Shown here: positions 9,845 to 57,767 of the stretch, one piece after another
Layout: every line of letters starts with the position of its first letter
How positions within the stretch are numbered: the stretch's first letter is position 1
Assembly: GCF_021134715.1 (NCBI RefSeq)
Contig: NC_060017.1
Location: 7,130,001-7,194,000 of the forward strand
Length of the DNA stretch: 64,000 nt
DNA from: Daphnia pulex
Lineage: Eukaryota > Arthropoda > Branchiopoda > Diplostraca > Daphniidae
Direction of reading: 5' to 3'
Notes under the pieces: model-generated
Seen by the model: the letters and a program-made list of their open reading frames with translations, nothing else
What the model was told of the DNA's origin: nothing
Databases searched by the model: none
Position numbers and translations under genes: made by a program

Positions 9845-12800
9845 ATGGCGACTGACCAGATTCAAGGAGAGCTGGAACTCGGCTATCAACACACGTTGGT
9901 AAGTTATATTGCAAGACTTGATTATAATATACTTCGTACACTGTGCCCGAGCTCTTTGTTCCAACAACGAGCACGAGAGTGGATATTTCCTGATTGCTCT
10001 ATATGTAAATGAACGTTGTAGTCTCTTGTTCTATCAACAAGTTGCCCTTGGAAGTTGTTTTTTTTTTAAAGCTAGTTTCTTGGGAAATGTTATTCTTTTA
10101 AGCTGATATCTCTTTTCACTTGCTGCCAATGTTTCTGTTTTGTTCGTGATTTTGAACGCGGAAATATTGTTTGACATGGAAACTGGTTACAACGATTGAT
10201 TTCGAATCTTTTCTCTCTGCCTGAGAGCTACAGGTGTTTTTTGTTTTTCATAAAAGGACTTTGTGAGTTGGAACTATTTAGCCAAACTAACAACACAAAG
10301 CTAAATGTTTTCCTTTTTTGACCTTGTCTGGAAGAATCAGTTTCAAAATTGTTTGGGGTTTTTTTTTATCTTTTCGAATTAAGTTTTTGTCGGGTGCCAA
10401 TGACCTGCAATTAAAGCTCTCTTCACGGCCAGACACGGCTTTAGTCGTACCAGGTACGAAAATGCAAAAGAGAAGAAAGAAAAAGAAATATAGTTTTAAA
10501 AAAAGAAGAAGAGAAGAAAAGTAAAGTGGCGAGCCACCGTGTTGACGTTCGGTAACAGCCGAGGGGGTTCGCGGGACTCCCGCTGCAAGGAGTGGTCACA
10601 TTTTGGGGCTATAATGCCGCGGGGTTGAAGGTAGAATAACAAAAAAAAACGTGAATGTCGTTTCGTTCGTGTTGTTGCCAAGCCAAAAAAAAAACCTTGT
10701 TTTTGTTATTCACTTTGAACGGAAAAAATTTAATGCCAAAGCACATTTTGTTTAAATTCACGACCAGATAATGAGCTTGATTGAATTCAATTTTTTCTTT
10801 CTTTTTTTTCCGGGAGAAATTGATGTTTTTGTGGGCCACCATCACGAGCGCGTACAACATTCAAGCGCGTGATTGATAATGGACATTTGAGAGTTTTTCG
10901 GTGGGAGATTTTGCATTGTGTTAACCTAATTCAATCTAAAGAGATGAAAGGCTGGGTTCATTGTAGACGTTTAATTCTTTTTATTATTTCTTGCACGTTG
11001 CGATTGGGCTCGTGACACGCCCAAGTCATAAATGAAAGATAAGAAATGGCATAAAAGTATCACACGGATGAAAAGACGACCCCCCTCTCGTATTCGCTTT
11101 TTCCAGTTTGAACAGATTTGATGACCAAACACAACACCAAGGCAATAACAATCATAATATTAACAGCAATCTTGGATCATGTGATGATGAAATATCTTAT
11201 CACTCGGGTCTAACGCGCGTGACACTTGAATAAAACGCCGACCTCTGAATCGTCGCTTCTTTAGACTGATTTTGCGTGCGCTTTATAGTGTTGTTTGTTT
11301 CCCCAAAGGGATGACGTAATCGTTCAATGTAGACTCTTTTATCTCCTGGATGTTTCTTTTTTCTCAAAACAACAAAAAATTGAATTTTCTACTGTCGTGC
11401 ATCTTTTTTCCTGTTTTCTATTTTCGAATCTTTAATGAATTTACAACATTCGGACATTTCTTTAGACTGCGCAGCGTGAGGTTGCATATGATTCACGCTT
11501 GGGGCAACAACTAACGCGGGATTGAGGAAGAAGCAACATCATTTTTACACATAGTCTCTCTCCTCTTTCTGACACACGTCTCATGTTCTTGACTCACAGA
11601 CACCTTTTTTTCCCAGATATCTTTTTAAAAATTCACTTTCACTTGAAATTCTAGTCCCGACGCCTGCTGATGATGATAGAAACGAGAGATGACCTAGCCG
11701 AAGGCTTCCAATTCCTTTTGGGTTTTTTGGCGTTACTTCAATTGGTGTTTTCCTTGCTCTTGTAGAAGCTAGCTGTGGCGTCATGCGAATAGCATTATTC
11801 AAATGAAGTATATGGGTTTTACCGGCGATGTTTCAAATATTGGCAAGGAAGCGGAGGGACTTTTGGAATTTTTTAAAAGAACTTTCACAGGCCTTGCTTC
11901 AGTGGGTAATTTATCTATTGGACATAATATCAGGTAGCTAGCTCTCTCTCTCTGTTGGCTAACTATTACGGTGGAACGATTCCTGAATGAAAGTTTTTTC
12001 TCTGCCTTTTTCCGATGTTGCAAATCCGCAAAGACATTGGTCGATTTTTTTGAAGGAAGGAAAAGTAGAGAAAGTTTTCGTGTATTTTTCTTTCTCCCAG
12101 TAATCATTTTTTTATTTTATTTTTTCCTATTAGAAACGGAAAGTTGTGATTGGTATTTTACTCGGAATTAATAAAACAAGTCGAACTAGAAGGAGAAAGC
12201 GATCTTCCCTTTTTCAAAATTGTTTTTAAACGTACAAGTGCATTTCCCCCGCTGTACGGTAAAAGTCCGTTTTGCTCTTGTTATATTTTATCTTCCAACC
12301 GCGATAATAAATAAGGTCAAGATTTCTTGGTCGCCGTATTTCTTTTCTTTTTCCGCCCAAAGTGGACCCCTCGATATGTTTATTCAAAAGCAGCTGCTTC
12401 ACGTTGGCCGAGATTATGCTGACGGGATTCTATTGTTATGAAATCCTATCTGCTAGCGGAGACTCTCACGAACAGGAAAGAATTAATTGCTATTGGGTAG
12501 AAGAAGAAGAACACAATCGCGATTCAGCCTAATTTTTGGTTTTGTAAATTCATCACCTGATAAGAGAGAGAAATAAAACGATTATCGGGAGCTATTCTGT
12601 GGGAAATGGAGTAAGATGTTTGTATCAAATTGTTTTATTTTTTCGGGGGATAATCAGTTGAGACTTTTTTTTGGCGTGTGATAGTTAGCACGGGGAGGAG
12701 ATTAATAATACCTTTCGGCTGGCATTTATTGTCCGTCGTGTCACGAAAATTAACTTTCTGGCCTCTGGGTAGTGTTACTATAGTGTTGCCCCCGCGCAAA

Positions 12801-15800: not shown

Positions 15801-18800
15801 TGCGTGGAAAATATCCGACGGAAAAACTTGAAAACATTCACGAGGGTTATCAGAACCTTTCACCGGTGAATAATTTCTGCTCGTTGGTCGTTTCACCTAA
15901 ATAGGGTCGTCGCTTAATATCGCCAAGTTGTTTTGAGCTGTTCACCGCAGTTTTTTTTTTTTTTGTCTTTTATTACAAGCGCAGATAACAGGATCCACTT
16001 CACTTTTACTGCTTTACTTTTATGCAGGACAAGGTCCCTATTAAAATGTTTTTTATTTTTTCTCTCTCTCGGTCGAAATAGTTTAATTTCGAAGAAATGC
16101 ATTTTGATCCAACTCGTCTAGAATGTCACATTCGCAATCTTTTTCCTTTCGATTCGCCGAAGTTGACTCGTTAAGACACGTCTGTCGTCACAAATATCCT
16201 TGTCACGCTCTTCCCATTTCAGGTGATCGATCGTGATGTGGAAAGACGTTCCACCGGTCTCAAATTAGCCCTGAAATTCGACGTTTTTATTTAAGTCAAA
16301 ATGACCCCGAAAAACGAACAGGTTTTGATTCCATCATTGTTCCACTATCTATTTGTCGGCATGACACTAGCTCTAGATGGTGTCCATCTGCTATCGATGG
16401 TTCTTCCTTGTTTAGTCAGTTCCCGCAACGTTACAGCCGCACCGTGACGAATGCGGTCAAAATTCCCCCCTAGCTGATATTATCCTAGGTTGTGTGTGTG
16501 TGTGTTTTCGCGTTTGAAGGTCTTGCGGGAGTTCCAAAAAACCTAAAATTAAACCGCGCTGGCTGGATGCCCGCAACACAGTGCAAGATTTTTAGCATGG
16601 CGTTCGTGTGTCGTCCTGTTGGGTGTGTGCGTTTGATTTTCCCGATGTTGGCGAACTTTTTTTTTCTTCTCTTCTGCTGGGGCACCAGAGAGATGAGACT
16701 CTTGTCTCATTATTATTACGCTGGAACTTGTATGAGCCGGGGCAGTCACAGTTCGAGTGTCAAGCGAACAACTAGGATCATCTCTGCGTCCGCGCCACTA
16801 TAGTCGCGTTGCTGCGTCTGTGGCAGCAACTGGACGATGTGGCCGAGTCCAAAGTGCGACATTATGAATAGGAATCCCGAACTAGTCGATATCGACAGCA
16901 ACTTTAACTACGTTTTCACAATGGTATTTTATCGTGCATGGCCAAAAACATCTACTTTACTTCCCCTACTACTCCTGTACCTGCTACTACTAATAGAATG
17001 ATTTCAATTGTGGCTCCTGGCTGTTGCATCACGAGGAGTTATTCCGACGTTTTTCCTTTTTGTTTTCACGATGACAACGGACGTTGCCCTGTGGCATAGA
17101 CATAAAAAGAGTGAAAATTCGCGTCTTGTTTTATTCTGAGAAAGTTTTTACGACTTTTTCGAACGCCGGTCTATTCTCTACTTTTAAAATGTACAACTTC
17201 TGGATGCAGAGATGTTGTTACACCGTCCACCAAATTTTGGAAATTTTGTGGTGTGGACGTGCTGCACTAGTGATGGTAATTTACCCTCGTCGATGATGAC
17301 GATGACCTGCATTTTTATGTGAATGTTATCACGCCGTAACCTCCGGGTTGGCCCTGAGGCGCGTGAAAATCCCAGTGTGAACTTCGCCACTCTCGTGACG
17401 AAATAAATCCCGTCGTCTTTTTGTGATAATCAGAGAAACTTTGAACTTAACGCCCATTCATTTTTCCTTCAATCATTTTGCTGCTGTGCTGTCGATGATG
17501 ACGATGAACGAAAAATCAAAAAGATGTACGGCCGATACTCGCGGAGTCTTGGCGAATACGCCAGACAACAGGCGGCCGAGCTCCGTGAAGCGGAGAAGAA
17601 CCGGAAGAAAGAAGAGAAGCAGCGGAGCAAAGAGCTGCGCACGTATCGAGGCAAATGGACTTCGCGTTTCCTTCGAGTCATTTCCTTCATCTGGCGCCAT
17701 ACTTTCGCCAAAATCGGCGAGGATTGGGTTTTTCTGGCCCTTCTCGGCATCATCGTGGCCATGTTTAGCTACATCATGGACTACGGTATCGTCATGTGCA
17801 ATAACGGTATGTTTATTACAGTTCCAGGAATGTTTTTAAAAAACACATTTTGTTTGTTCCCTATAATAAAATCTGTTTTTCTTTTTTAAACCAGCTCGAG
17901 TGTGGATGTACCGTGATTTGACGACAAATCCTTTCCTGCAGTACCTGGCCTGGATCTGCTTGCCCGTCTTCCTCGTCCTGTTTTCCGCCGGTTTCGTTCA
18001 CATCCTGGCACCCCAAGCCATCGGTATGTGTTCTCTTCTCTCTCTATCATCTTTCTCTTTAGAGCTTCACATCCTGCCCCCGCCAAGAATATTTACACTA
18101 TATAATGAAACACTGTGCACGAGTCTGTTTTGTGTCACTACTACCGCCTCAAACCGGATTATATCCGCTCGCTGGATACAACGAGATTGGCTGTGTGTGT
18201 GTACTACCAACTATTTTATAAAGTAGCGATCGTTTATCATCGCCGGGGGTTATTGTACAGCACATAATTTCACGCTGCTGTGAAATGAGAGCATCGATTG
18301 TCACGTCAATCCCGACGTTATATGCTAATGCGCATTATTTTCCTCCATCTTTATTATTTCACGCCAATAATGCTGCTGTGCTTTCTATTTTTATAATAAT
18401 TGAATTTTCCTTCATGTTTTTTGGTTTGTTTTGTTGTAATTTTCAGGCTCGGGAATTCCAGAGATGAAGACGATTTTGCGAGGTGTTGTTTTGAAAGAGT
18501 ATCTGACGTTCCGCACGGGAGTCGCCAAAGTTGTGGCCCTCACGGCCGCCCTGGGCTCTGGAATGCCACTGGGCAAGGAGGTAATAAAAACGTCCGTTTT
18601 CCACTCGTTCTGCAAAATGGTTATGATGACCATTAATAATAATTTTTTATTTGGTTCCGTTTTGGCATTCCGCAGGGTCCCCTGGTGCATATTGCCAGTA
18701 TCGTCGCCACTCTCATGTCCAAAATGGTGACATCCTTCAAAGGAATCTACGAAAATGAATCGAGAAACAGCGAAATGTTGGCCGCTGCTTGCGCTGTGGG

Positions 18801-21800
18801 TGTCTCGTGCAATTTCGGTGCTCCCATCGGAGGTCAGTCTTTTTATAGCGGATTATTCTTATTTTCGTGCAATCACCTGAATAACCGGAAATCTTATAAA
18901 TATAAAATAGGCGTGTTGTTCAGTATTGAAGTAACATCCGTTTACTTCGCCATTCGTAATTACTGGCGTGGGTTCTTCTCTGCCGTTTTCGGGGCTCTCA
19001 TGTTCAGGCTCATGGTAACTAAATAAATTATTACTATTTCGTTACGGATGTGATTTTAATAACTTGCTTTCTTTTTCTTTTTTTGGAAACCAGGCTTATT
19101 GGTTCTCCAATGAAGGTATACATTTATTAACTCGACGTCGTTTTTATGATCATTTTCTAAATAAGAGTTTTTATTTTTCACAGATACCTTGACGGCCATT
19201 TTTGGAACGGATTATCACGTTGACTTTCCTTACGATCCCCAGGAGCTTTTCATCTACGCTCTCGTTGGGTAAATTTATTTTGCAAACTTATTTATTTGAA
19301 TACAATTTTTTAAAATAATTATTTTAATACAATAGTGCTTTTGGTGGACTATGTGGAGCGGCTTTCATCTTGTTCCATCGCAGATACGTTCTGTTTATGC
19401 GAAAGAACAAAAGGATCAGTTCCTTCTTGCAGAAAAAGTGAGTTTTCATTCGAGCCAAAGGATTGAATAACATTATGTTGTAATTTTATACTTTTGATCA
19501 TCATCAGTCGTTTCATCTATCCTGGTCTGATGTCACTCTTGATCACCACCTTGCACTTCCCACTGGGATTGGGTCAGTTTCTCGCTTCGACATTGTCGAC
19601 TCGCACGCAGATTTTGCACCTCTTCTCCAATTTCACTTGGGTCAGCGATGACTTGACGGTAGAACAAGCGGAAATTGTCTCCCATTGGGTCACGGATAGC
19701 TGCAGTATCTTTGTCAACTTGAGCCTTTACATGTTGGTCACTGTAAGTTTCACTTATTTGCTGTTTCATTTTTGCGGTTGACTTATTATGGCTGCTCTAA
19801 ATTTCCCTTCGTTTCTCCAACTTAGTTTTTCACCACCATTTGGGCTTCCACGTTGCCTGTTCCGTCTGGTACTGTCATTCCCATTTTCAAAATGGGGGCC
19901 GCTTTCGGTCGCATGATCGGCGAGGCCATGCACCTCTGGTTCCCGGAAGGTGTTCGCATTGGCGGCGCCTTGTCGCCCATTTTACCGGGTACAATTTTGA
20001 ACAAAACAATTATTTGTTTTTTTCTTTTATGGAACTCGCAAATTCACGGAAAACATTTTTCTGCCGCAGGAGGTTACGCCATTGTGGGAGCCGCAGCTTT
20101 CTCTGCCGGTTTGACCCATTCGATTTCCATTTGCGTCGTCATTTCGGAAATGACGGGCCAAATTCGCCACATCATCCCCGTTATGATTGCCGTTTTGGTA
20201 GCCAACGCCATTTCGACTCTCCTCCAACCGTCTCTCTACGATTCAATCATTATGATCAAGAAACTGCCTTACTTGCCCGACATTATCTCGTCCAGCAGTG
20301 GTACGTTTCTTATTATTCATTTATACCTGTCGATTGGTGCTGTTATCTAACAAGTTGAACATCTCAACAGCTGCCTACAGTATTTTCGTCGAGGATTTCA
20401 TGGTCCGAAATATCAAATTCATCTACAACGGCATGTCCTATAAAGAATTGAAGAATCACATTCGCGAAAGCCGACGTGTCCGTGCCTTCCCTCTAGTCGA
20501 TAATCCAGGTACGTAAAAAATACATTACATAACGCTAGCTGAAAACTATATTTAACTCTGATTAATCTCTTCTCACAGATAGCATGATCTTGCTGGGTTC
20601 CATTCAGCGAACGGAACTGATTGGTCTTATCGAGAGACATATCGGCCGTGACCGTCGCTTGCAAATAGCCGCCAAGAGGCAAAAGGAAGCACGAGTCAGG
20701 TAAATGCAATTTAATTTAGCCAATTTTATTACACAGCTGAGCTAATTTTTTTAAATTTTAGAATGTACGAGGACGCCATGACGACATTGCAGCTGGATCC
20801 CCCGCCCTTCAGCAGAGTCAGTCTGGCACTTCCGGCACCGCCTGCAGGACCTTCCGCCGAAGACGCCAGCAAGAAACCTGTTGCAAGGCGGCCATCTCGA
20901 TTTGAGGTAGTCAAGGCACCGGAAATGTTGCACAGCGTCGATGACCAGCCACAAGAGCAATCACCTGGATCCGATCCAATGACTCCCAGCTCCGTTCAAT
21001 CTGGCGATATTGAAGACGTATGTGAAATTTTACTACGCACGACTGGATTGAATTCCCAGTGTGATTAGAGTTAACCGCAAATTTGATTATGTTTTCAACA
21101 GAGAGCCTACTTGGGCAGTCGACCTCAAAAGTCCATTCTCAAGCGAACAAATTCACAAACGTTGAAATTTGCTGGACCGATGGCCACTCCTTCCTTGACG
21201 CCATATTCTACCGTCACTGGAGCTGAAGGAAGGTAAAAAATGGCTTTTATTTTAAAATTCAAATCTTTATTCCTTTAAATCTTATTCCTTTATTAATTCC
21301 GCTTTTTTGTATGATTAGTAAATTCCGGGCGGCTATTGGCGCTTTCATCCGTAAATCGTCGACCATGTTGGATTCGTCCAAATTCGATTTCACTGGCATG
21401 GGTGGAAGTGGATCGTCATTGCCGACCAGTCCTACATCCTTCAAGAAAGTCACACTGGTAACTAATTAATACCATTATATCATTTCAAAGTCGATATTAA
21501 TTGATTCATTAATGGATTAGCCGAGGGAGAGAGTGATCGACATGACTCCGGAAGAACAAAAGCAATGGGAGGACAGCGAGATGATGCAACCGGTAGATTT
21601 CCATAAATCGCACGTCGATCCCGCTCCTTTCCAACTTGTTGAACGAACCTCACTGCTCAAAGTTCACTCCATGTTCTCGTTGTTGGGTGTCAACCACGCT
21701 TACGTCACCACTACTGGCAAACTCATGGGAATCGTTTCACTTAAAGAAGTACGTTCATTTTAATGCAATAATGGAAAGATGTGTTTTTCTAATAACTTAT

Positions 21801-24289: not shown

Positions 24290-27200
24290 ATGGCGACTGA
24301 CGAAAAAACACAGACCTCATCATGCGAACTCGAAATGGGATACCAAACAACTGTGGTAAGTTCCAACATTGCAATATTTTTATCAATGCTAGATTGTGTC
24401 TCCTTGGTTCACTAATGGAGTGAATTAATTTACTTTGTCAAACGACATTCGTCAACTGTCAAAATTTGCTGTCGGCTGCAGCAACTGTCATTTTTACGAT
24501 GTGGGGAGAGACCGGCTTTCTCGAACACAAAAGATTAGCCATTTTGAATATCATTGTCTTTAATTATACCCAAAAGTATAGAGCAAATGTTAATCACCGA
24601 CTAGCGGTTTTTGTTATTGTTCTAAGCTTTGTGGGAATAGTTCAAAGAACTCGGCGACATCTCTGGGTCGTACTGGGTCGATTTGCCCAGCAACATCTTT
24701 CTACCCTCATTCTGACCCTCTCGTCTAGAAATAAAGAATCGTCCTTTATTCTTTATGTTTTGCCCTTGCCAAAAAAGATGCTCGAGGACACTGATCAGCA
24801 GTGCATTCGACCTTGTTTAAAATCCCATAGACGTGTGTATTATTGTTAGCCTTCGTGGTTTTACACGGGAAATGTTTGAATACAACAACGCCCCTCCATA
24901 TTTATTTAGAGGCATAGTTCATTGAACTCTTGTCGTTATAGGACTTAATCTTGTCGTTCACGATGAGATTTTTATTTATAAAATCCATTTCTTTGTTTCG
25001 TTTGACATCATCTTTTATATAAGTCGCTATGTTCGTTTAAAAAGCTTCGGTTGTTTTCCCCTCGTAGCCGGGAGCTATAAGTGAAAACGACCCCATTTTC
25101 TTGCGTGTAACTAAGGGCATCCCAACAACCGTAAGGCAGTAGCTATTGTTAACCTCAAACTTGGATATATACACACGGCCTTGTGGTTTTTTAAAGAAAA
25201 TGGGGAAAACCCTCCCACGAAATTCCCTTTTTTCTTCCTTCTTTTAACTTCGGCCTATTTTCTCCGAATGCCTGGGGGACATTTTAGACCAAACTACCGT
25301 GAACAAGACCGGATCTGCTTTTGTGACTTTCTCCACTACGGTACTATATACATGTGAAAACAGCAATGCTACTACATTACTACTGGGAATTGTTTTTGTG
25401 CTGGGTGGCCAAACCATCCGATACGCTAGCTAGCTACCCAGTGTAGTATGTCGAATATCTGACCAGTCATCTTATTACTAGCCAATGCTGATGGCATGAG
25501 AAGTTGTTAGGGAAACGAGATGGTCGATTCATATCCAATACACGTGTATACTATACTATGCTTCGCCATGTCCGACTGTGATCTTGTTTTGAAAGACATC
25601 ACAGAATGATGAATGAACGCGTTATCCAAAACACATCTCGAATGTCAGGTAGTCTTTGACACTCTAGATATAGTAGAACAGAGTTCTATAGCCCTTTTTC
25701 TGAACAAAACAGCATTTGTAGTTTAAGATTCCCTTGTCGAGATGATGGCCATGCAGTTTTTCAGACTCCCCTCTTTCCCATTGACTCGATAAAACCGGTA
25801 GAAACCAGAACGACCCCCCGACAAATTATAAAAGTGACGATAGTTTTTAACACAGTCTTTGGACAACAAAATTAATTGGTTTTTATTAGATATTAATAAT
25901 AGCCTCTTTCATTCCTTGGTCGGATTACCATCCGCTCGTAAATCATGACGACTTTGGTCATTATGAAATCTATCGAGACATTTCAGCCATTAACAGGTTG
26001 ATGGGTTCATTGTTACACCAATCCATGCAATTACTACTTCCTTGTTGTCTGTTACGTAATTAATGTTTTCTAGCTGTGATTGTCCGATAATGCGGTCAAA
26101 AAACCCTTTTCCTACTCGGTAGAGTGGCGCTATTAAGTTTACACATGGGGAGGGGGGCTGATGACTTGTGAAATGGCCAGTCTTGTCTTGAATGGATCCG
26201 TCCTTCCTGCTGATGGAAGCAAAGAAGGAGGGGTGTTTGGAAGATGAGTTTGTGTTTACACTGCTCTGTGATTGGATGATTGGGGGCAACACAACTCTCG
26301 CTGCTGGATCGATTGCTCTCCTTGGGATGATGACTTCATATCCTCCTATACTACATGAGGCCATTGTCGCATCTTCCTTAATCTGATTGGATGAAAGTGA
26401 AGACGATCCGGCTAGGCAAAGTCAAATAAATGCGCCGACTAATTTGCAGTTGAGCGTCAGTCCGTATCCTAATTCCCAATCCTCCATGACTCGTACTGAT
26501 TGCTACTATCCTCGAAATAACGTCGTTATTTTCTTTCCTTTTCATTCTTTTCATTTGACCCTGGCGTTTGGTGCTATGCTAAGATGTACGGCCGGTACAC
26601 TCGCAGTTTGGGTGAATACGCTCGAGAGCAAGCTGCTGAACTACGCGAACTGCAAAAGAACAACAAGAGGGAGGAAAAGATAAGAAATAAAGAATTGTGG
26701 TCTTATCGGGGCAAATGGACATCGCGACTTTTCCGGGTCGTATCCTACACATGGCGCCACACTTTTGCCAAAATCGGAGAGGACTGGATATTTTTGGCTC
26801 TTCTCGGTAGCATCATGGCTTTGCTGAGTTACATCATGGATTACGGAGTCAATCTGTGTAACACAGGTGAGCACACTTTTTAAAAAATTCTGGCAGGTGT
26901 TTTAGTTTTCTAATTTTTACTATTATTATTTTTTTTTTAGCTCGGATGTGGATGTATTTTGAATTGACAAACGATCCGGCGGTGCGCTATCTGTCCTGGA
27001 TTTGCCTACCCGTCTTCCTTGTCTTATTTTCTGCTGGATTTGTTTACTTACTAGCCCCCCAAGCTATCGGTAAATCTTGAAATTGTTTACTATTTTTGTT
27101 TCAAAGATTTTACAATTTTTAATTTCAGGCTCTGGAATTCCGGAGATGAAAACAATTTTGCGAGGTGTTGTTCTCAAAGAATATTTGACTTTCCGCACCG

Positions 27201-30200
27201 GAATAGCTAAAATTGTAGCTTTGACTGCTGTACTTGGTAGTGGGATGCCACTGGGCAAGGAGGTAATAAAAACGTCCGTTTTCCACTCGTTCTGCAAAAT
27301 GGTTATGACCATTAGTAATTTTTTATTTGGTTCCGTTTTCGTTTTGGCATTTCGCAGGGTCCCCTGGTGCATATTGCCAGTATCGTGGCGACTCTCATGT
27401 CAAAATTAGTGACATCCTTCAAAGGAATCTACGAGAATGAATCAAGAAACAGTGAAATGCTGGCAGCTGCTTGCGCTGTGGGTGTGTCCTGCAATTTCGC
27501 AGCTCCAATTGGAGGTACTATAATTAAGATTGATTTTTTGGATTAGATTTCTCATTCATAAATTTTTTTCTTCTTATAGGCGTATTGTTTAGTATTGAAG
27601 TCACGTCCGTTTATTTCGCCATTCGCAATTACTGGCGCGGCTTCTTTTCTGCCGTTTTCGGGGCTCTCATGTTTCGCTTATTGGTATGATATACATTTGA
27701 TAAACTTTTATCTGTTTGACTTGTTTAGTAATTTTCGGATCTTTGCCCTTTATGCATTTCTACAGGCTTATTGGCTCGAAACAGAAGGTAAACATCCGCC
27801 ATCAATTATTCCCACTTTCACTTTCTTAAATTGTTTTTTAAAATTATTTTAATTAGAGACTTTGACAGCCATGTTTCGCACGGATTTCCGGGTTGACTTT
27901 CCTTACGATCCCCACGAACTATTCATTTACGCGCTTATCGGGTGAGAAAATATAAAAATTGATTTGTCGTTTTCTAACACGTCGTCAACTTATCAAATTA
28001 TTGATTTTTGAAATCAGGGCTTTTGGCGGCTTATCGGGAGCTCTTTTTGTCCTATGTCACCGGAAGTATGTCCTTTTTATGCGGAAAAACAAAAGAATCA
28101 GCTCATTCCTTCAAAAGAAGTAAGTCGCATTGTTGTTATTCATCTCAGTTTACGCTTGTCGTCTCCCATAGCCGAAATGAACAGCAAACAACTCTCGTCT
28201 TACTAACTTTGCACTATCTTTTTTTTTTTTTTATTTATTATTATTATTATTCGATCCAACCCAGTCGTTTTATCTATCCGGCCGTGGTTTCGCTTTTCAT
28301 CGCAACCTTGTACTTCCCGCCGGGCCTGGGCCAGTTCTTGGTATCAACCTTGACGACCAGACAACAAATTATGAGCTTGTTCTCCAACTTTACCTGGATG
28401 AGTGACGATTTAACGGCGGAACAGTCTGAAATTGTTTCTCACTGGACCAATGAGTATAGCAACATTTTTGTAACACTTGGGATCTACATGGCTACAACGG
28501 TACCCGCTACTATACTTACACCATTATTGCTCAATGTTTCATGTAACGGTTCTTTGTTTTGGCAGTTCTTTCTAACGGTTTTGGCCTCTACTCTTCCAGT
28601 CCCATCCGGCAGTCTCATCCCAATCTTTAAGATAGGAGCGGCTTTTGGGCGTATCATTGGCGAGGCCATGCATCTTTGGTTCCCAGAAGGTATTCGCATA
28701 GGATCCGTCATATCACCTATCCTTCCAGGTATGCCCAGTAGACAGAAGAAAATATAATACTTCATTGGAAATGAAAAAAACCTAAACCGGTTGGCTTTTC
28801 ACGCATCCGCAGGAGGTTACGCCATTGTAGGGGCAGCGGCTTTTTCCGCCGGAGTGACCCATTCAATTTCGATTTGCGTCGTTGTTTCTGAAATGACTGG
28901 ACAAATTCAGCACATCATCCCTGTTCTAGTTGCCGTTCTCGTTTCCAACGCCATTTCGACTCTGCTTCAACCTTCTCTTTATGATTCAATCATTATGATT
29001 AAGAAACTGCCTTATTTGCCCGGCATCATCTCATCCAGCAGTGGTATGTGATCAAGAAAATTGATTAATTCCTATTTCACTTTTAATTGATTGATTGTCT
29101 TGCTAATTTTCTAACAGCTGCTTACGACATTTTTGTCGAGGATTTCATGAATCGTAACATCAAGTACATTTGGAATGGCATGACTTACCAGGAATTGAAA
29201 ACCGTTATCAAGGATAAACCGAAAATCCGATCGTTCCCACTTGTCGATAACCCAAGTTTGTTACTTCCTGATTATACGGTTGACATTTTCCTCGTAACTA
29301 AACAATTCGTTCAAACAGGACATATGGTTCTCCTTGGATCTATTCAACGAGGAGAGCTGATTGAACTGGTAAAGCGACACATTGGACATGACCGTCGCGT
29401 GAAAGTGGCCGCACAACGTCAAATAGAAATTCAGTCGAGGTAAGCCAGCTTGTTGGAATGAGCCAAAATTTAAACAAAGCACGTAGTATGTCATTCATGA
29501 GCAGGAGTTTCGGACATATTATCCCCATCAACCTCGATCCCCCACCATGCCGTCTGGGTGAAACCGAAGAATCGTCGTTGACACACGATCCCGCCAAGCA
29601 GCAACAGCAGCAGACTTCGCGATTTGAAGTTGTGAAAGCGCCCGATGATTTGGGCAATGGCTTAATAACCGATACTGCAATTCAGCGTTCATCGCAACAT
29701 CTCCAGCAACTCCAGCTGATTACGTTACTGCCGTCACCCGAGCCGCAAACCCCCGTTTCAATTCAGTCAACTGAAACAGACGAAGTATGGGAACGACTGA
29801 CCCATTGATGTGCTCTATTTCAACACTAACGTTTGTACATTTTCATCGTAGGAAGCGCAACCGAGAAAATCTATTCTGAAAAAGGGAAATCGATTTAGTT
29901 CGATTCGGTCAAAATCATCTCAACAAACGATTCAAACTACTCCAAATTCAACAATAACTGGGTCAGAAGGAAGGTCAGTATTCACACCTTAATTAATGAC
30001 CTTTAGGAAATTGTATAAAAACTTGTTCTTTCTCCCCCCTTCTCTTATTACTTCCTTAACAATTTTAACGGATTTTGTTGTTTACAGCAAATTCCGTCAA
30101 GCCATCGGTGCTTTCATCCGTAAATCGTCTGCTAACGGAGGTATCTTTAACTTTGCTACTGCCACATCACCGCCGACTAGTCCTAGCCCATTCAAAAATG

Positions 30201-31052
30201 TCGGTGTATCGGTAATAGCCCTTTTTCTTGATTAAAAAATAAGTACTATTTGATTAAATTATTTTTATACGACAGCACAAATCAAACGATATGACGCCCG
30301 AGGAGAAGAAAGAATGGGAAGAAAGCGAAATGTTGAAACCAGTAGATTTCCACAAATGCCACGTCGATCCAGCTCCCTTTCAGCTGGTTGAACGAACCTC
30401 GTTGCTCAAAGTCCACTCCATGTTCTCATTGTTGGGCGTCAATCGCGCTTACGTCACCACAATTGGCCGACTTATTGGCATAGTCTCTCTATCAGAAGTG
30501 AGTGGAAACACACATGGACTGAGCCAAAAATAGTTGATTTTATTAAACGTCTGCTGGTTTCTTTGTATTTGATTTCAGTTGCGTAAGGCTATCGAAGACG
30601 TGAATTCAGGTGTTTCTTTAGCATTTCACCGCTTCAGTTTTAGCAGCCAAGGAGAGAACAGCGAGTTTGATATTCAAGGTGTTTCCCCAGGCGCTCCGAA
30701 AGATCTCGAAACAGGTACAAGGCAATCAAGCGAAATTTTTTTTACAGAGTTATTTACTTACACACAAAAAACTGTTATTGTTGTACTACTCAAAGGCCCC
30801 GATTTGCCTGGAGTGTCGGACTCTGATTCTGAAACGGACCAAGATGAATCATCAGCTTCGTCTGCTTTTGTGATCCCGGTGCAATTTGATGTTCATCATA
30901 TGCCAACTGTATCCGTCGACGTTGAAAGTACCGCCTCTACTACGATTAGAATGAAAGATAACAGCATCAAATTGGTCGTTCCCAGTGCATTTGCATGCCC
31001 CGGTGGCGCTGCTGGTGAATCGTCTGTTGCCAAGACTGATGATGAGAATTAA
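24290..31052 (+). CDS. ClC-a: CLC-2/ClC-a type chloride channel, paralogue B
   Basis: Exons: 24290-24355, 26584-26866, 26941-27069, 27129-27262, 27358-27514, 27580-27683, 27766-27787, 27857-27941, 28018-28119, 28265-28499, 28566-28728, 28813-29043, 29118-29255, 29319-29439, 29505-29784, 29852-29973, 30088-30211, 30276-30497, 30579-30714 and 30796-31052. They total 3111 nt (1036 residues). Exon structure matches ClC-A one for one. GSGIPE and GKEGPLVHI (gating glutamate about 204) are intact. The third motif is GSLIP (about 454-458), with Leu in place of the usual Phe. The pore tyrosine is near 550, followed by two CBS domains. The linker keeps SRFEVV, preceded by a polyGln run instead of Arg-Arg, and KSILKK. 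The tail has a SDSDSE acidic patch. The last intron (30715-30795) is 81 nt and open in frame, so retention would add 27 residues. AATAAA at 31622-31627 may end the transcript. Confidence 0.95.
24356..26583 (+). other. First intron of ClC-B
   Basis: A 2.2-kb intron with scattered open frames of 60-127 codons, none recognisable. I see no repeats of note in it. Confidence 0.6.
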
Positions 31053-38300: not shown

Positions 38301-38886
38301 GCCCCTTTCCAGTTAGTTGAACGAACCTCATTACTCAAAGTCCATTCCATATTTTCTTTACTTGGAGTCCACCACGCTTACGTTACCACTCTCGGGAAAC
38401 TAGTTGGCATTGTTTCTTTAACCGAGGTAATTCCGACTTCCTCAGTGTATTTTAGAAACGAAAGAGATTATCATGCATTAATTTCCTTTCGACAGTTGCG
38501 CAAAGCGATTGAAGACGTCAACTCGGGTGTTCTCTTAGGAGCGAGCGCCCAGTCAACAGGTAACGTGTCGTCGGAGCAGAGCATTGAAGAAGTGGCGCAA
38601 AGTACCACGGAAAAAGAAAGCGAAATAGGTAACAAAACGGCATCATTTTTATTATTGGATTGCTAAATACTCCATATTGCGTTATTTTCTTCTTCTTGTA
38701 GTTTCACAACCAGCGCCGGATACAGAAAACTATGATTCACTGACAACTGCATCTTCCCGTCATGTTAAGTTTATGTTTTTACGAAGACTGTCAGTCTCAC
38801 CTGGCGCAGAAATGACCGACATTAATGTTTCAGAGGGCAGGAGCAGTTCTCCTGCTTCGAATTCTCGCGGTGATAATCAACCTTGA
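32400..38886 (+). CDS. ClC-a: CLC-2/ClC-a type chloride channel, paralogue C
   Basis: Exons: 32400-32468, 34223-34505, 34572-34700, 34800-34933, 35002-35158, 35248-35302, 35369-35417, 35496-35517, 35579-35663, 35740-35841, 35927-36161, 36222-36384, 36453-36683, 36751-36888, 36965-37079, 37278-37614, 37718-37875, 37960-38086, 38181-38426, 38496-38628 and 38702-38886. They total 3153 nt (1050 residues). It differs from A and B by an extra phase-2 intron (35303-35368) inside the Trp codon of the NYWRGFF motif. GSGIPE and GKEGPLVHI (gating glutamate about 205) are intact, with PVPTGSLIP as the third motif. The CBS linker has a Pro/Leu/Ala repeat, then RRKVSRFEV and [10 protein letters not shown]. 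The tail lacks the SDSDSE patch seen in A and B. Exons 8-10 and 13-14 are almost identical to ClC-D. Confidence 0.94.
32469..34222 (+). other. First intron of ClC-C
   Basis: A 1.75-kb intron. Only short open frames are present, with no recognised element. Confidence 0.6.
35579..36161 (+). repeat. Near-identical tract shared with ClC-D (tract 1)
   Basis: This 583-bp tract covers exon 8, its intron, exon 9, its intron and exon 10 of ClC-C. It aligns without gaps to 55233-55815 in ClC-D, and I count about ten differences, introns included. Neighbouring exons and introns of the two genes are clearly more diverged, which points to recent gene conversion. Confidence 0.9.
36749..37010 (+). repeat. 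Near-identical tract shared with ClC-D (tract 2)
   Basis: Covers exon 13, the 76-nt intron and the first part of exon 14 of ClC-C. It matches ClC-D 56491-56752 with two differences seen in exon 13 and none in the intron. Similarity drops shortly after the GTAGAA hexamer in exon 14. Confidence 0.88.
37351..37400 (+). repeat. 12-bp coding minisatellite in ClC-C linker
   Basis: Four tandem copies of the unit cctgcaccacta, one with a single change. It encodes a Pro-Ala-Pro-Leu repeat in the cytoplasmic linker between CBS1 and CBS2. It is absent from the other three paralogues. Confidence 0.9.
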
Positions 38887-43260: not shown

Positions 43261-43305
43261 AGCAACAGTATAACTCGATGCAAAAATTCTTTCACCAGTG
43301 TAGGC

Positions 43306-45568: not shown

Positions 45569-45680
45569 TTTCTGATTAAAAGTTGTTTGGGGATCTCAGA
45601 CCACAGGTGGGCGTATTTGACAGGTGTGAATGGCTCTTGCAAGTCCAGCATTGATTCAGACATGATTGATTCCATAAAAC

Positions 45681-45860
45681 GTGAAGCATGGAGCTCTTTC
45701 ACACTTCAGGATAACACCGCCACCAAAGACTGCATGCAACAGCTTAAGGTGCACATTAGACTGCAACGAAGAAGCTCAAACTTCACCTGGCTGTTAATCC
45801 TACTTGAAAAAAAAAATCAATTACTATTGCGGAACAAAGTCTCGTGTGACATAACAAAAT
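45681..45860 (+). repeat. Dispersed duplicated block, second copy
   Basis: Related to 43836-44037 in the same orientation. The shared string aaagactgcatgcaacagct is exact, and flanking similarity is interrupted by indels. Confidence 0.6.
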
Positions 45861-47333: not shown

Positions 47334-48927
<1,594 letters not shown>

Positions 48928-50842
48928 ATGGATGCGTACAGTGATGACATTAACAAAGATAGCACTAGTCAGCATGCTATACGTGTAGGAAAAGTAAATG
49001 GCAAGCATTCAAAGCAAAAAATCCATCAAACAAAGAATGTTCCAGTGAGCTGTATTGGAGATTTCAAAAATATGCCAAAGGCTATGCTTTTAAAGAACTT
49101 GAAGCTTTTCAAACTAAACACTAATGGAAGTAGAAAAGTCCTAATGAAGCGACTGGAAATGTACAACAAAAAAACTACAGAAATGTTTGACTACTATGTT
49201 GTCATTGACTATGAAGCAACATGTGATGAAAATACGAAGAATTTTGAGTAAATTTTTTGTTTTTGATTTACATAGATGAATTTTAGTAATGTTATGTTTC
49301 TATTTTATAGCAAAAACAATCAAGAAATCATTGAATTCCCTGCTGTGTTACTGAACTGTCACACTGGAAAAGTGGAAGCTGAATTTCAGTCCTACTGTCG
49401 ACCAGTAATTAATCCTTTATTGACAAAATATTGTATCAAACTCACTGGGATCACACAGGTACATTTTTAAAAAGTATGTCTATTGGAAAACTTTAAAATC
49501 TAATTTTTTCTCTTCAGAATATTGTGGACAAGGCCCCTTCATTTCATGAAGTTTTGGCTTCCTTTGAAAAATGGTTGCAGAACAAGAAACTTGGTTCAGA
49601 GTATTCATTTGCAATTCTAACTGATGGATCAAAAGATGTTGGTCACTTTCTGAAAAGACAGTGTGTGGTAATAAGGATTTAAAAAAAATTGCACTGATCA
49701 TTATTTGTTTTAATCGTTTCTGTTGCTTTCAGTTATCGCAAATTGATATCCCGGAATATTGCAAATACTGGATAAACATTCGAAAGTCATTTACTAATTT
49801 CTACCAGACCAACGATTTACAATACTTTGCTCGTTTGGCTAATGACACAGTTCTTAACATAATGATTAAAGAGATTGGATGTAAATTTCAAGGAAAACCC
49901 CATTCTGGATTGGATGATGCTCGAAATATTGCGTATGTTGCTCAATGCCTTCTTCAAGACGGAGCATCCCTAGTATTTAATGAAAAGTTGTCTGATGAAA
50001 ATGCCGAAAAAAAGGCAAATAGCAACTCTTCTTTCTCTACTCCAGTCTCTAAAGCAGAGTTCTCAATCATTTGTGGCACACTTAAGCCTAATTTTCCAGC
50101 CAAGAAGTCTCCGGTTACTTCAAAAACTCCTGACACAAACACTGTTGCTAAGGATGTTCTTGTAAAGGCTTGTAACAGTGAAACAAAGGCAAAACCTGTT
50201 GTCAAAGAAGTTGTGAAGATTCCGGCCATAGCAAGCAATTCTGCCAATGGAGCTTCGACAAAAACTACAGCCAAGAAGAAGAAGAATCAACATTCAACCA
50301 AAGATACAGTCAAGATTCCAGCAACGAAAAAGAATCAACCAAATATGCAGCCAGATTCTCTGGTGAAGACTTCTTCCAAAGCAAACACGCCATCGACTTC
50401 AGAAAAAACTTCTGCCAATGTTACTCCGACACAATCTTCAGTCAAAAGGACTCCGGGGAAGAGTACTGCCAAGATTCCGGAGACTGCAGACGTTATAAAA
50501 CAGGAATTGATGCTTGCCAAAAAAGTTTTGTACTCTAATGCTGAACATATTCCATTCTGGAAGGTGACGCAACTAAAAGAACACATAGAAGATCTAAAGA
50601 AATCGTTGAAAGCAGCTAAATCTAGGGAAGAGAAGGCAGTTTTAGTTACAAAGTTGGACTTATCTGAAAAGAAAGAGTTTGAAGTACCTAAAGCTACTAG
50701 TAAAACTACTAATCGCGGTTTGGTTGCGCTGAATGAAAATCTTATTTCTGGAATTTACGCTTCCAGTACAGCCGTAAAAGAACAATTATTCTTTGAAGAT
50801 TTCGAAAATTTGTTAACCATGAACAACAACAGTTTCCCGTAA
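48928..50842 (+). CDS. Eri1: ERI1-type 3'-5' exoribonuclease with long C-terminal tail
   Basis: Four exons, 48928-49247, 49311-49458, 49518-49667 and 49733-50842, encode about 575 residues. A SAP-like domain spans roughly 45-82 (GDFKNMPKAMLLKNLKLFKL). A DEDDh exonuclease domain follows: DYE (Asp94, Glu96), TDGSKD (Asp192/Asp196), WINIRKSF, and HSGLDD with His263 and Asp268. All catalytic positions are present. In animals this family trims siRNA ends, histone mRNA stem-loops and 5.8S rRNA. Residues from about 292 on form a Lys/Ser/Thr/Pro-rich tail of about 280 residues with repeated KIPA/KIPE motifs. It ends with a predicted helix (VTQLKEHIEDLKKSLKAA). Human ERI1 is 349 residues, so the tail is extra. 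A TTG triplet upstream is in frame, but the ATG at 48928 is preferred. Confidence 0.93.
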
Positions 50843-51920: not shown

Positions 51921-54900
51921 ATGAATAGTTCAACACGAGAAATGAAGATGACAACAACAGATTCAGTCGAGGACGACAGCAAAAATGTTTTGGAGATGCG
52001 GTATCAGACAACTGTGGTAACTATAATACATTTTCTATATCTATGAAACTCACAATACGTCACCAAAGGTTCACTCCAATTTATCGTTGATGGTCGAATA
52101 CTTTTGAAATTACTGCGCTTTCTTAATTACGGACGATAATCTGTAGTGAAATTAAACCAACGAAACACTGTGTTAAAAAAAACTACCTCTAAATCACTAG
52201 TTAGAAACTATTCGCCCACTGTTTAGTTTTAGCCATGGGGCAATGCAGCTTACACTGCTAACCGCTTAAATAATAGATCGTTTCTCGAGAACCAGTTTCT
52301 ACCATGTCGGGTCAAACTGCATACGTGTCTTCTTTATAGGGAAAGCCGTACCAGGTAGATTTAAAATCCGTACCTGGTACGAAAAATGTCTCTCCTTCGC
52401 ACGTTCCATCAATTTCAAAGTTTAAAGAAAGAACGGGAGAAAGAAAGTAACTCTTACCAGGGCAGCACTCGTAAAATGTAATTGGTTACTGCTGACTCGC
52501 CCAAAACTATTGGGGTATTGGCTATGTATCCGTTTGGCTGATAGCCTGATACAGAAAATCTGACGTACTAATAACAACATCCAGCACCAATTTAGGAAGG
52601 ATAATTGTGCGCAGAGCTTTTTTACGAGGGTTTCCGTGTATGGGTATAATATAAATTAGATAATGGAGAGTTTTTACAACCATGGGCGATGTCGATATTT
52701 GCACACATTCCTTTCTAAAAAATGCAATTATAGTACATAAAAATTACTACTCTTTGGAAATAACGGAATTGCAAAAAGATTCGTAAAAGAGCGTGGCGGA
52801 GAAAACGTATTACATTCTTGCATTATGATGAGTTAAATACAGAACTAGAATTCGTCACGCGAAATGTTACTGTACCAGGAGGTGCCGGTGTGGCGGCAGG
52901 TCCCTATCTGGCTATCTCTTTGGTCATAAAATTTTCTAGATGCACTTGCAAAATCATTTAGTCTAAATTGTGAAACGTAGGTGTTTTGATAGCATATGAT
53001 TCCAGTGTTGTTCTTCTTAGAAAATCAGAATGTTTACAATTACTAACAATGATACATTTGTAAAGTAAATTGCTAAAAACTGCAATGACAACACTGCAGC
53101 ATGAAATAGTTCAAGACATTTGCAAGAAAAATTTGAAAATTTTAGTTTTCTAATGTCAACGTGATGTTTTCCACATAAACTTGTGATTTTCCTTTAGGAA
53201 CACTGGAATGGTTTCCTGACTAACCACTTATGTTGGTTTCATAACTAAATTATTTTCAAATAAAAAAATGGTTTTAACTTAAATCTTGATGAGCAAAGAG
53301 CAAATATAAAATGTTGTGTTTACCACATGTGTTTGCATATCAACATATGAATGCTTTTCAGAGATAGATTGTAAACATGAAAATAATATACTATTTAATA
53401 GTTTTCAAATTTTATTTACCTTTAGCTGAATTCGAACGTTATCATATTCCTTTTTGTTAGTAATCTCACGTAATCTTAAACTTCGTGTAATTTTTGAAAA
53501 GCAAAACGACACTTGAAAAGCAGACGACACTTTTCCGATGGAAAACCAAAATCGACCCCTCCCCTAAATTCCAAACCGCTCAAAATTCAAAAACGATAAA
53601 AGCAGCTGTTTTCTATCCGCTGAACCTGAACGGATCAGGATTATTTTCAAAATATCTTTCGTTTCAACAAGTGCACTAAGCCCCAGTCCTCCCCACAGTT
53701 AACCTATTAAGTAAAAATTTGCACCAAACCTGCAGATAATTACTTTTAGACCGAAACTCGGAAACCACCACAATATTTAAAAAAAGGAATTGCGTTTTCC
53801 ATGAGGCTGCCAATTAAGACGTGTACGGCTTCGAGGCTGAATAAATTTTAAAGGCAGTCGATTTTCTTTTGAAGATGTCAGGCCAATACTGGAGGAGTCT
53901 GGGCGATTACGCCAAAGAGCAGGCGGCCCAACTTCGGCAACTTGAAAAGAAGATCGTCGATGGGGCCAAGGTTCAGAAGAAGGAGCAATCCCATTACGGA
54001 AAGTGGCTTGCGTGGTTGCGTAATCTCCTAAAATTCACCCGAAGAAAAACGTTCGTACTTATAGGCGGAGATTGGGTCTTTCTCGCTCTACTCGGAATAT
54101 TAATGGCTATTCTCAGCTTCACCATGGACTTGGGAATTTACGCGTGTTTCACTAGTACGTGTTCTTTATTTATTTTTTATTTTAACATATTCAAAATCAC
54201 AGATGGGCTAGAAAATTAACAATTACTAAATACATTTTTGTATTATTCACGCTAAAGCTCGACTTTGGATCTACAATCACTTCAGAATCTATCCTGCTCT
54301 TCAATTCTTTACCTGGTTTACGTTGCCCGTCTTACTCGTCCTTTTTGCAACCGGCTTCGTATTTATTGTTTCACCGCAAGCAACAGGTAACAGTTGTTTT
54401 AAACGTCGAGCGTGCGACCAAGCAAGTGGAGAAATTTGTAATTGGACTTATCCGTGTTTATATTAAGGCTCGGGGATTCCGGAAATGAAAACCATCATGC
54501 GTGGTGTAGTCCTGAAGGAATATTTAACATTTCGGACTCTAATTGCCAAAACTGTTGGACTTACAGCTGCATTGGGTTCTGGAATGCCTTTGGGAAAAGA
54601 GGTAATAAAATACATATATGTTTATTCAATTGGTTCAACCAGATTTACCGCAAGGAAGACGCAACAACTTACTTAGGGTGCACTGGTTCATATCGGTGGT
54701 ATTGTCGGTACACTTCTCTCAAAGCTACTGACGTCATTTAAAGGAATATACGGAAACGAGTCACGAAAGACTGACATGTTGGCCACTGCTTGTGCTGTGG
54801 GATTGTCTTGTAGCCTCGGTGCTCCCATCGGAGGTTAAACGAATTTATTTTCTTTTAATTCACTGACACATTGAGATTATTCCTTTCTGTAAAATAGGAG

Positions 54901-57767
54901 TGCTATTCAGTATTGAAGTAACTTCCGTGTATTTTGCAATTCGAAACTACTGGTAATGTTTTACAGTGGACTAATAATTGATGTGTTCTGTTATTAAACT
55001 TGATAATAATTTTGTTCCTTAAGGCGTGGGTTCTTCTCAGCGGTTTTCGGCGCTCTAATGTTTCGGCTTCTTGTAAGACTTTAAATTATAGTCTTGTGTC
55101 CCAATCAATCTAATTTCCTATTTAACTATCCAATGTAGGCTTACTGGTCCAATTCAGAGGGTATCAACTAGGCTAATCCCGAAATTTTAACAAGTTGACA
55201 TAATATCTTTATACATCTTATGTGATTTTTAGGAACACTCACGACAGTATTTCCAACTAGTTTCCAAGTTGATTTCCCCTACGATCCTCACGAGTTATTT
55301 ATTTTTGCACTTGTTGGGTAAGTTTGAAGAATTGTCCTTTATGATTCAGAAACTAGACGCAATACTTAACGATCAATCATCATCAATCAAAAGTGTGTTT
55401 GGCGGTCTGTCGGGTGCCGTCTTCGTTTTATTTCACCGGCGGTACGTCCTATTTATGCGCAACAATACAAGGATCAGCTCTTTCCTCAAATACAAGTAAG
55501 CGTTTCATTTCGGATATTCATCTTGATCAGTTAAGACATTATTTTGCTCTAACATGTATAAATGATGATCATGTCTGCAGTCGCTTCATTTATCCGAGCA
55601 TCGTGTCTGTCCTTATTGCCTCACTGTTTTACCCGTCGGGTTTCGGTCGTTACTTGGCCACGACACTGTCGACAAAGCAGCAAGTCGGCGCCTTGTTTGC
55701 CAATTTTACGTGGCTTAGTGACGATTTGTCGGTAGAGCAAGCGGAACGGCTCTCGCATTGGGATGTAGCAAACACGAATCTCTTCGTAGGCCTCGGAATT
55801 TTCATGAGTGCTAATGTATAGTTTATAAATCATACCAAATTTGACAAACCTATTTTGGATTTCAGTTTACGCTCATTGCTGTTCTTTTAAATTAACAGTT
55901 CTTTTTGAGCATCCTTGCTTCAACGTTGGCCGTCCCTAGGGGTAGTCTCATTCCCATTTTTAAAGTGGGTGCTGCTTTTGGAAGGATGATTGGCGAAGCC
56001 ATGTATTTCTGGTTCCCGGAAGGCATCCTCTGTGGAAATTTGCATTCTATTCTACCAGGTATTTTCTATTAAGTTCAATACGTACAAAAGTGATTACGTT
56101 ATGACTACACTAGCTTCTCAGGAGGTTAGTTTTGGAAATCTCATAAATATTCATTATTCATTTAATATTCTTGTCCATTTAATAGGAGGTTACGCTATTG
56201 TGGGAGCAGCAGCCTTCTCGGCGGGTGTGACTCACACGATTTCTATTAGTATAGTCGTTGTAGAAATGACCGGACAGATCCAGCACCTCATCCCCATTCT
56301 AGTGGCCGTTATTGTGTCGAATGTAATATCCACTCTTTTACAACCATCGATCTACGAATCAGACATCATGATCAAACAACTGCCCTATCTGCCATGCATC
56401 ATTTCGTCTAGGGGCGGTAATTTTACATCTTCTTGGTACACTTCCTACTTCTAATCTTAATCTTTTTTTTATTTTCTTCTTTACTATGGTAGCCATTCAC
56501 AGTATTTTTGTCGAGGACTTTATGAATCGAAACGTCAAGTACATCTGGCATGGTATGACGTATGGTGAACTAAAGAATCTAATCGCAGATAGTCAAGGAA
56601 TCCGCTCATTCCCGTTGTTGGGTGACACGGGTAATCCACTAATAGATGATTTTGTTTTGTTTAACTAAGCGAAACATGTTCTTAATATTTTGCGGTTTCC
56701 ATACAGAACAGAAGATTTTACTTGGCTCCGTTCAGCGCGTAGAATTAATGGCATTAATAGAGCGTCATATCGGTGCCGAGCGACGCTTAGAAGCCGCCGC
56801 AAATCGTTACATGGAGGCCAGGTATTGTAAGCTTTACAACAAGTTAAATTTTTAAGTAGCCAGTTTTGAAACAGGTTGAAAAACACACGGTTATTGCTGA
56901 TTCAATACCATCATAAACGACCGTCCATATCGTAACGTATCCGGAACAAAACTAGTTAAACAAAATCAAAGTGACGGTATTGGCATTTGGATCACGCGGG
57001 GAAGCCGTCAAACGGAATCTGACTAATATTTTTCTATCCCGTAAAAGATTTACAATTATTCCGTTTTCTTTGCAATTTAGAAAAAATGAAATAAGCCGAA
57101 GAAAGAATTCGTCGTTTATCGTTCCTCCATTGGCTTGGCAATCTGTAATTCCCGATCCTAATGCACCAATTCGTCGGAAGGTATCACGTTTCGAAGTAAT
57201 AACATTTTCTGACGTCACTGTTACCGAATTTTCCGGAATTGGAACGCAACAATCTGATGAGCGTTCACAGCCGGAGACAATTACGCCTAATTTGTCGTCC
57301 GATTCTCTGATAGTGACTGTCGAATCCGACGTTAAAGTACAGGTAATCAATGAAAGGCCTGAAATCAATTCATTAAAAATAGATTTAAATATTTCTTTTT
57401 TCATCCATTTCATATTTCATAGAGTGGCTTGTCTTTCGAACAAGGTATCGGAATGTCCCCAGAAGAAATAGAAGAATGGGAGGCAAATGAAATGCTCAAG
57501 GTGGTCGAGTTTAAGAAAGATATGATCGATCCTGCCCCTTATCAGCTCGTAGAGCGCACTTCACTTCACAAAGTCCATGCCATATTTTCCTTACTCGGAG
57601 TCCAACAAGCTTACGTCACTGCTCTCGGGAAACTAGTTGGCGTTGTTTCTTTAACGGAGGTAAATAACTTTCACGTTGACAAGGATTGAATACGGTGTTG
57701 TAATAATATTTCTTTTTTTTAGTTGAGAAAAGCGATTGAAAGTGCAAATTCAGGTGTGTTATCTTAG
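51921..57767 (+). CDS. ClC-a: CLC-2/ClC-a type chloride channel, paralogue D (shortened, divergent filter)
   Basis: Exons: 51921-52016, 53875-54154, 54258-54386, 54468-54601, 54677-54833, 54898-54952, 55024-55072, 55139-55160, 55233-55317, 55394-55495, 55581-55815, 55899-56058, 56186-56416, 56493-56630, 56707-56821, 57081-57342, 57423-57659 and 57723-57767. They total 2532 nt (843 residues). All phases agree and no stops intervene. The start may instead be the third in-frame ATG (51948), which aligns with the other copies. GSGIPE and the gating glutamate (about 213) remain, but the motif reads [11 protein letters not shown] instead of GKEGP. PVPSG is AVPRG before SLIP, and IGEDW is IGGDW. It shares the extra NYW intron with C. 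The two linker exons (KSILKR and KFR) are absent, only 80 nt of intron remaining. The protein stops 14 codons into the last exon, without the acidic tail. CBS1 and CBS2 are retained. Confidence 0.9.
52017..53874 (+). other. First intron of ClC-D
   Basis: A 1.86-kb AT-rich intron without recognised genes. It has cgtacctggtacga at 52369-52382 and a related half-copy at 52346-52357. These resemble the palindrome in the first intron of ClC-A. Confidence 0.6.
55233..55815 (+). repeat. Near-identical tract shared with ClC-C (tract 1)
   Basis: Partner of 35579-36161. The tract is 583 bp with no gaps and about ten differences. It spans exons 8-10 of ClC-D with both introns. Confidence 0.9.
56491..56752 (+). 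repeat. Near-identical tract shared with ClC-C (tract 2)
   Basis: Partner of 36749-37010, covering exon 13, a 76-nt intron identical in both genes, and the start of exon 14. Confidence 0.88.

Follow-up and report, generated by a model that had tools for sequence, protein, structure and literature searches.

A tandem array of four ClC-2/ClC-a-type chloride channel genes in Daphnia pulex, with gene conversion between two copies and substitutions at conserved gating positions

Flies have a single ClC-a gene. Its product is a CLC-2 homologue with similar electrophysiology that acts in epithelia and glia (PMC6851788). The available text of PMC5422481 gives three ClC-type genes for Drosophila and seven for Aedes aegypti, and expansion of the family as a whole in arthropods is thus not unique to the host of the array described here. 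In CLC proteins, a central Phe (CLC-ec1 F357) and an outer Phe (F190), conserved across the family at ~76% and ~94%, respectively, are described as making up an aromatic slide for the gating glutamate (PMC7274781), so that the pair is typical but not strictly defining. In the same study, Ala at either position of CLC-0 made single-pore gating nearly voltage-independent, whereas putting a non-aromatic cyclohexyl group in the central place caused a rightward shift that favoured the closed state, with a sign opposite to that of Ala; its authors state that indirect effects of Ala cannot be excluded. Mutations at the central position disturb CLC-1 and cause myotonia, and changes at the slide positions alter gating or transport in CLC-0, CLC-5, CLC-7 and CLC-ec1 (PMC7274781). 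The Cl- ion at the central site is coordinated by backbone amides and not by the side chain (PMC9726985).

Organisation and identity of the array

The stretch analysed (64,000 nucleotides, hereafter the window) lies within one contig of a 133.2 Mb, 13-contig assembly and contains no N. Genes were modelled by spliced protein-to-genome alignment, and for A, for D and for part of C the result was checked by eye on translations in three frames; the first coding exons of A, B and C were located by an upstream motif scan, and a similar exon was then found for D. Four full-length ClC-2/ClC-a-type genes, A to D, all on the + strand, span 9845-57767, with two other genes between C and D:

9845..22297, + strand: ClC gene A, 20 coding exons, 1039 aa (spliced model and Pfam)
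9845-9898, + strand: exon 1 of gene A, followed by a 7.6 kb intron, with exon 2 from 17524
24290..31052, + strand: ClC gene B, 20 coding exons, 1026 aa (spliced model and Pfam)
32400..38666, + strand: ClC gene C, 20 coding exons, 982 aa (spliced model and Pfam)
47334..48420, - strand: triosephosphate isomerase (TPI) gene, two pieces matching Pfam TIM
48910..50842, + strand: ERI1-like exonuclease gene, RNase_T E 2.3e-5, SAP below cut-off (E 0.008)
51921..57767, + strand: ClC gene D, 18 coding exons, 843 aa (spliced model and Pfam)

As predicted from the DNA, each of the four models begins with Met, ends at a single stop and has no internal stops, and all 74 introns have GT-AG borders, a count that is partly built in since the aligner places introns almost only at GT-AG. 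Four same-strand paralogues with intact frames had been proposed in an earlier note on this DNA, whose limits prove exact, the start being the ATG of A and the end the stop of D; TPI and the ERI1-like gene were also found where it had placed them. Its description of the exon order as matching holds but for two differences: an extra intron (35303-35368 in C), absent from A and B, interrupts the NYW|RGFF codons of both C and D, and the linker that joins the CBS domains has lost two exons in D, whose protein ends directly after CBS2. The note had missed the conversion tracts, the fast evolution of D and the changed gating residues. The first coding exon of A, B and C ends GY-x-x-T-[LV], and D has a similar first exon of its own carrying the LEMxYQTTV motif common to the array. 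The first intron of A (9899-17523), at 7.6 kb, is longer than those of the other three genes (1.75-2.2 kb). Pairwise protein identity among A-D is 60-79%, which excludes chance likeness.

All four proteins match Pfam Voltage_CLC (PF00654) and Pfam CBS, although in A the best CBS stretch is CBS1 and no single stretch passes alone; a profile of A-D aligns with both tail (CBS) regions of human CLC-2. In a PDB profile search, human CLC-2 was the best solved relative (E 7e-283), with CLC-1 next; full-length CLC-2 and CLC-1 chains gave E <= 4e-247, followed by CLC-K (1e-166), CLC-3 (3e-71) and CLC-7 (6e-48). The proteins are 45-50% identical to human CLC-2 over 636-638 residues (membrane/CBS1 part). 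These results bear out the earlier assignment to the ClC-2/ClC-a type. GSGIPE, the gating Glu, the pore Tyr, a complete CLC membrane domain and the CBS regions are present in all four, the gating Glu lying in G-K/R-E-G-P with Pro replaced by Ala only in D. All four read FSIEVTS where the CLC-3/5-type genes of the same genome read FSLEEV; the Val of this motif occupies what we take to be the proton-glutamate position, and since Glu is absent there, channels and not exchangers are to be expected.

A six-frame Pfam search of the genome returned at least 25 exon matches at four places, namely the array, C4, C6 and C12. From their motifs, we take the C4 and C6 genes to be of CLC-3/5 type (exchangers) and the C12 gene of CLC-7 type. 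This search and two further probes, whose counts are lower bounds, revealed no additional complete gene of ClC-2 type in the genome. With the first probe, array exons gave E 1.6e-28 to 1.0e-4 and C4/C6 exons 3.4e-7 to 2.6e-5; with the second, carrying the canonical Phe, at least nine matches were obtained, comprising two exons of each of A-D (E 1.5e-36 to 5.8e-18) and one fragment on C8. The C8 fragment (~8006584-8006944) is a broken, intron-bearing piece of A, in which stretches of 94% and 87% identity match 20177-20350 and 19675-19861, the intervening stretch, which includes most of helix N, being missing. The two CLC-3/5-type genes, at C4:5513500-5520500 and C6:1956500-1963500, are similar to each other and both read GLYIP, with Tyr for the Phe of GxFxP. 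Among viral contigs, 20 pattern matches to possible relatives yielded none that was confirmed. A genome scan for GKEGP as a DNA pattern was uninformative (48 matches against 67 for a reversed-pattern control), since an intron interrupts the codons of this motif in the array genes.

Besides the two TPI pieces that match Pfam TIM, the first piece of the gene was assigned by motif and is presumably correct, and 'ERI1-like' is likewise our assumed name for the RNase_T/SAP exonuclease gene. The gap between C and TPI contains a near-perfect palindrome (42124-42657; arms of 238 bases, 97%) along with a pair of diverged repeats (43811-45950). Both belong to dispersed repeats, with at least 80 and at least 43 matches when 40 candidates were scored for each, and copies 97% and 98% identical to them are found ~63 kb upstream, similarly spaced (3.3 vs 3.4 kb), which suggests one transposon-like insertion. 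The array is flanked upstream by a piece of a BSD-domain gene (4834-5145, + strand, E 3.3e-5, just under the curated cut-off) and downstream by a piece of a GCM-motif (glial cells missing) transcription factor gene (62058-62462, - strand, E 1.7e-29). An Rfam search of the window gave no matches.

Gene conversion between C and D and the history of the copies

Identity between C and D along a sliding window is mostly 65-85% and rises to 96-100% at two places. Segment scoring delimited two tracts that are 98-99% identical, against 76% elsewhere over 1951 ungapped columns:

C 35580..36165 / D 55234..55819, + strand: conversion tract 1, 586 aligned bases with 9 differences, spanning introns 9 and 10
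C 36743..37002 / D 56485..56744, + strand: conversion tract 2, 260 aligned bases with 2 differences, spanning intron 14

Introns 9, 10 and 14 are 97, 96 and 100% identical between C and D, whereas the other 11 introns compared are 47-72% identical, and random intron pairs (40 draws) had a mean identity of 50% and a maximum of 63%. Five C/D introns outside the tracts, at 68-72%, exceed that random maximum, indicating that C and D are moderately close outside the tracts too. C and D are identical without interruption for up to 199 bases, whereas no run in 5000 shuffles went beyond 60. A conserved intronic element in place of conversion was ruled out: introns 9, 10 and 14 of C are only 43-55% identical to their counterparts in A and B, which are unrelated at those places. 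The blocks are sharply bounded, near-identical and cross introns between diverged flanks, the pattern by which gene conversion is recognised, and C and D have thus exchanged sequence by recent gene conversion in two blocks. Three smaller C/D segments, of 60, 60 and 132 bases, may reflect either earlier conversion or simply conserved exons. Intron 4 of A (18581..18675, + strand) is 81% identical to intron 4 of B (27263-27357) and of equal length, the other 16 A/B introns being 41-60% identical; this likeness probably reflects an older A-B conversion.

A tree of the four genes, with human CLC-1 and CLC-2 as outgroups and sole other CLCs, was built over 485 columns outside the conversion tracts. 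It has the form ((A,B),(C,D)), with supports of 94/96 and 93/93, which are good though below the program's starred class. At least three duplications would account for it, an ancestral pair arising first and A/B and C/D afterwards. Silent divergence, taken over the nonconverted core (exons 2-8, 12-13 and CBS2), amounts to 0.56 between C and D and to 1.16 between A and B; from one pair to the other it runs from 1.7 to beyond the range of the formula. The array is therefore old and its closest pair is not new. The dN/dS of this core is ~0.20 for C-D and ~0.09 for A-B. In tract 2 as scored over 66 codons, pN between C and D (0.032) is higher than pS (0.023), with very few changes involved.

Of the nonconverted core sites with the same state in A and B, 39 are changed in D only and 10 in C only (p 4e-5); the corresponding counts inside the tracts are 1 and 3. 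Branch lengths are 0.32 for D and 0.043 for C outside the tracts, a ~7-fold difference, and 0 and 0.022, respectively, inside them. The simplest reading is that the copying ran recently from C into the fast-evolving D, as suggested by the near absence of changes private to D inside the blocks and their abundance outside, the comparison resting on few within-tract sites (Fisher p 0.04).

The two blocks of 98-99% identity are also what might be seen if C or D were an assembly artefact, either an uncollapsed haplotype or a chimera, a possibility that the earlier note had itself raised. It is very improbable, and was rejected on divergence, flanks and intron lengths: C and D are 76% identical outside the blocks, their introns are unequal in length, their flanks and first exons differ, both lie on a single contig of the 13-contig assembly in a window without N, and the blocks themselves hold 9 and 2 differences. 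It is more conceivable, though still doubtful, that D is a decaying copy which looks intact partly because conversion from C renews pieces of it. Its long branch outside the tracts, the two missing linker exons and the short tail agree with this, as do 13 private changes, against 9 in A, 3 in B and 2 in C, at sites common to human CLC-1, human CLC-2 and the three sister copies (373 columns), including the change that turns GKEGP into GKEGA and an Ile-to-Asp change close to the pore Tyr. Against it, all 843 codons are open, D retains its own first exon with the shared motif, and its core dN/dS relative to C (0.113/0.559) indicates that D is constrained, only less so.

Slide residues and predicted channel behaviour

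Neither slide position is intact across the array. The outer residue, F190 of CLC-ec1, is presumably the F of its AFNAPLAG stretch and hence aligned with FGAPIGG. The codons concerned, with the change beside the gating Glu in D, are:

19874..19876, + strand: central slide codon of A, Val (GTVIP; human CLC-2 has GAFMP)
28614..28616, + strand: central slide codon of B, Leu (GSLIP)
36270..36272, + strand: central slide codon of C, Leu (GSLIP)
55947..55949, + strand: central slide codon of D, Leu (GSLIP)
35140..35142, + strand: outer slide codon of C, Leu (human CLC-2 has Phe)
54815..54817, + strand: outer slide codon of D, Leu (CSLGAPIGG)
54680..54682, + strand: Ala in D for the Pro of GKEGP (GKEGA), two residues past the gating Glu

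The aromatic pair (central Phe of G-x-F-x-P plus outer Phe) is thus absent from all four proteins, the central residues being V, L, L and L and the outer ones F, F, L and L in A to D, whereas both positions are Phe in human CLC-1 and CLC-2. Elsewhere in the same genome, the outer and central residues are Phe/Tyr in the C4 and C6 genes and Phe/Phe in the C12 gene. A six-frame scan of the window for a hidden exon that might supply a canonical GxFxP or FxAPIGG gave nothing beyond the copies of helix N and helix I, four of each, already in the models.

We consider it fairly probable that the array encodes four plasma-membrane Cl- channels of the ClC-2/ClC-a type, of which C and D have undergone conversion, with gating changed at the slide positions. 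Like ClC-2 and fly ClC-a, each protein would form a double-barrelled dimer passing Cl- across the plasma membrane of epithelia or glia. Channels of this type characteristically carry an inwardly rectifying Cl- current activated by hyperpolarisation. Given that Cl- is held by backbone amides (PMC9726985), selectivity need not change, and the prediction is one of altered gating. Since Ala at either slide position leaves CLC-0 nearly voltage-independent, the Cl- conductance of A-D would most likely depend little on voltage, and least in C and D, by analogy with a channel that is not ClC-2 and a substitution that is neither Leu nor Val. The sign of any gating change is uncertain, as Ala opened the single-pore gate of CLC-0 and a central non-aromatic ring moved it in the closed direction. 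D, under relaxed constraint, may be a specialised or modifying subunit. More tentatively, the slide may have been removed stepwise, the central Phe in the ancestor of the array and the outer one in the ancestor of C and D, leaving gating to proceed by another route, for example as a constitutive or pH/volume-set leak, and conversion would keep part of D matched to C.

Daphnia genomes are rich in tandem duplicates, and the array could be an ordinary Daphnia or branchiopod tandem expansion in which Phe to Leu or Val is tolerated and ClC-2-like gating is unchanged. This is a serious possibility, to which we give somewhat less than an even chance: the central Phe, at ~76% conservation, is missing from a quarter of CLCs (PMC7274781), the genome's own CLC-3/5-type genes have Tyr there, and the seven ClC-type genes of Aedes (PMC5422481) point the same way, but human CLC-1 and CLC-2 keep Phe at both places, C and D have lost both residues including the outer one conserved at ~94%, and slide changes do alter gating or transport in CLC-0, CLC-5, CLC-7 and CLC-ec1 (PMC7274781). 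The suggestion in the earlier note that the array has been kept for freshwater osmoregulation or eggshell/epithelial Cl- transport is a conjecture that we regard as rather unlikely. It would fit the epithelial Cl- transport served by ClC-2 and by fly ClC-a, the latter in Malpighian stellate cells (PMC6851788), but among the literature matches listed, in which coverage of subscription papers is thin, there was no report of a Daphnia CLC-2 array or other Daphnia CLC-2 paper, and a Daphnia magna chloride-channel paper concerns CLCA, a different family. The array would offer four natural paralogues, two without one ring and two without both, that keep the gating Glu and purifying selection, a ready-made comparison for a role so far tested, in PMC7274781, by mutating proteins that normally have both Phe residues.

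Comparison with described systems

Four tandem copies with gene conversion are ordinary in kind. The loss of slide residues in A-D is unusual and worth specialist attention, with a weight that depends on whether other arthropods share it. In practical terms, the array supplies named candidate genes for epithelial Cl- conductance in crustacean physiology, and, because of the conversion tracts, the exons inside them have to be omitted from gene trees of C and D and from short-read estimates of their expression, which would otherwise be misleading.

The array resembles tandem duplicates evolving partly in concert through conversion between linked paralogues, in that near-identity is patchy, here crossing introns, and it differs in that the partners are full ion-channel genes, separated by ~19.7 kb and by two genes unrelated to them; PMC3236188 deals with duplicated exons of Dscam in Daphnia. 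As in the expanded arthropod CLC set of Aedes aegypti, there are more CLC genes than the three of Drosophila, the Aedes total of seven being for ClC-type genes overall, with the share of ClC-a type and any clustering unstated in the available text of PMC5422481. With Drosophila ClC-a and vertebrate CLC-2 (CLCN2), the four genes share the full-length architecture, the gating Glu, GSGIPE, the pore Tyr and the CBS regions, and with human CLC-2 also an N-terminal exon ending Y-x-x-T-[LV] ahead of an exon 2 that starts M-[YS]-G-[RQ]-Y, the human sequence being LQYEQTLMYGRY (LQYEQTL at that place). They differ from fly ClC-a in being four linked copies where flies have one gene, and from human CLC-2 in that the central slide Phe is gone from A-D and the outer one from C and D, with GKEGA in D.
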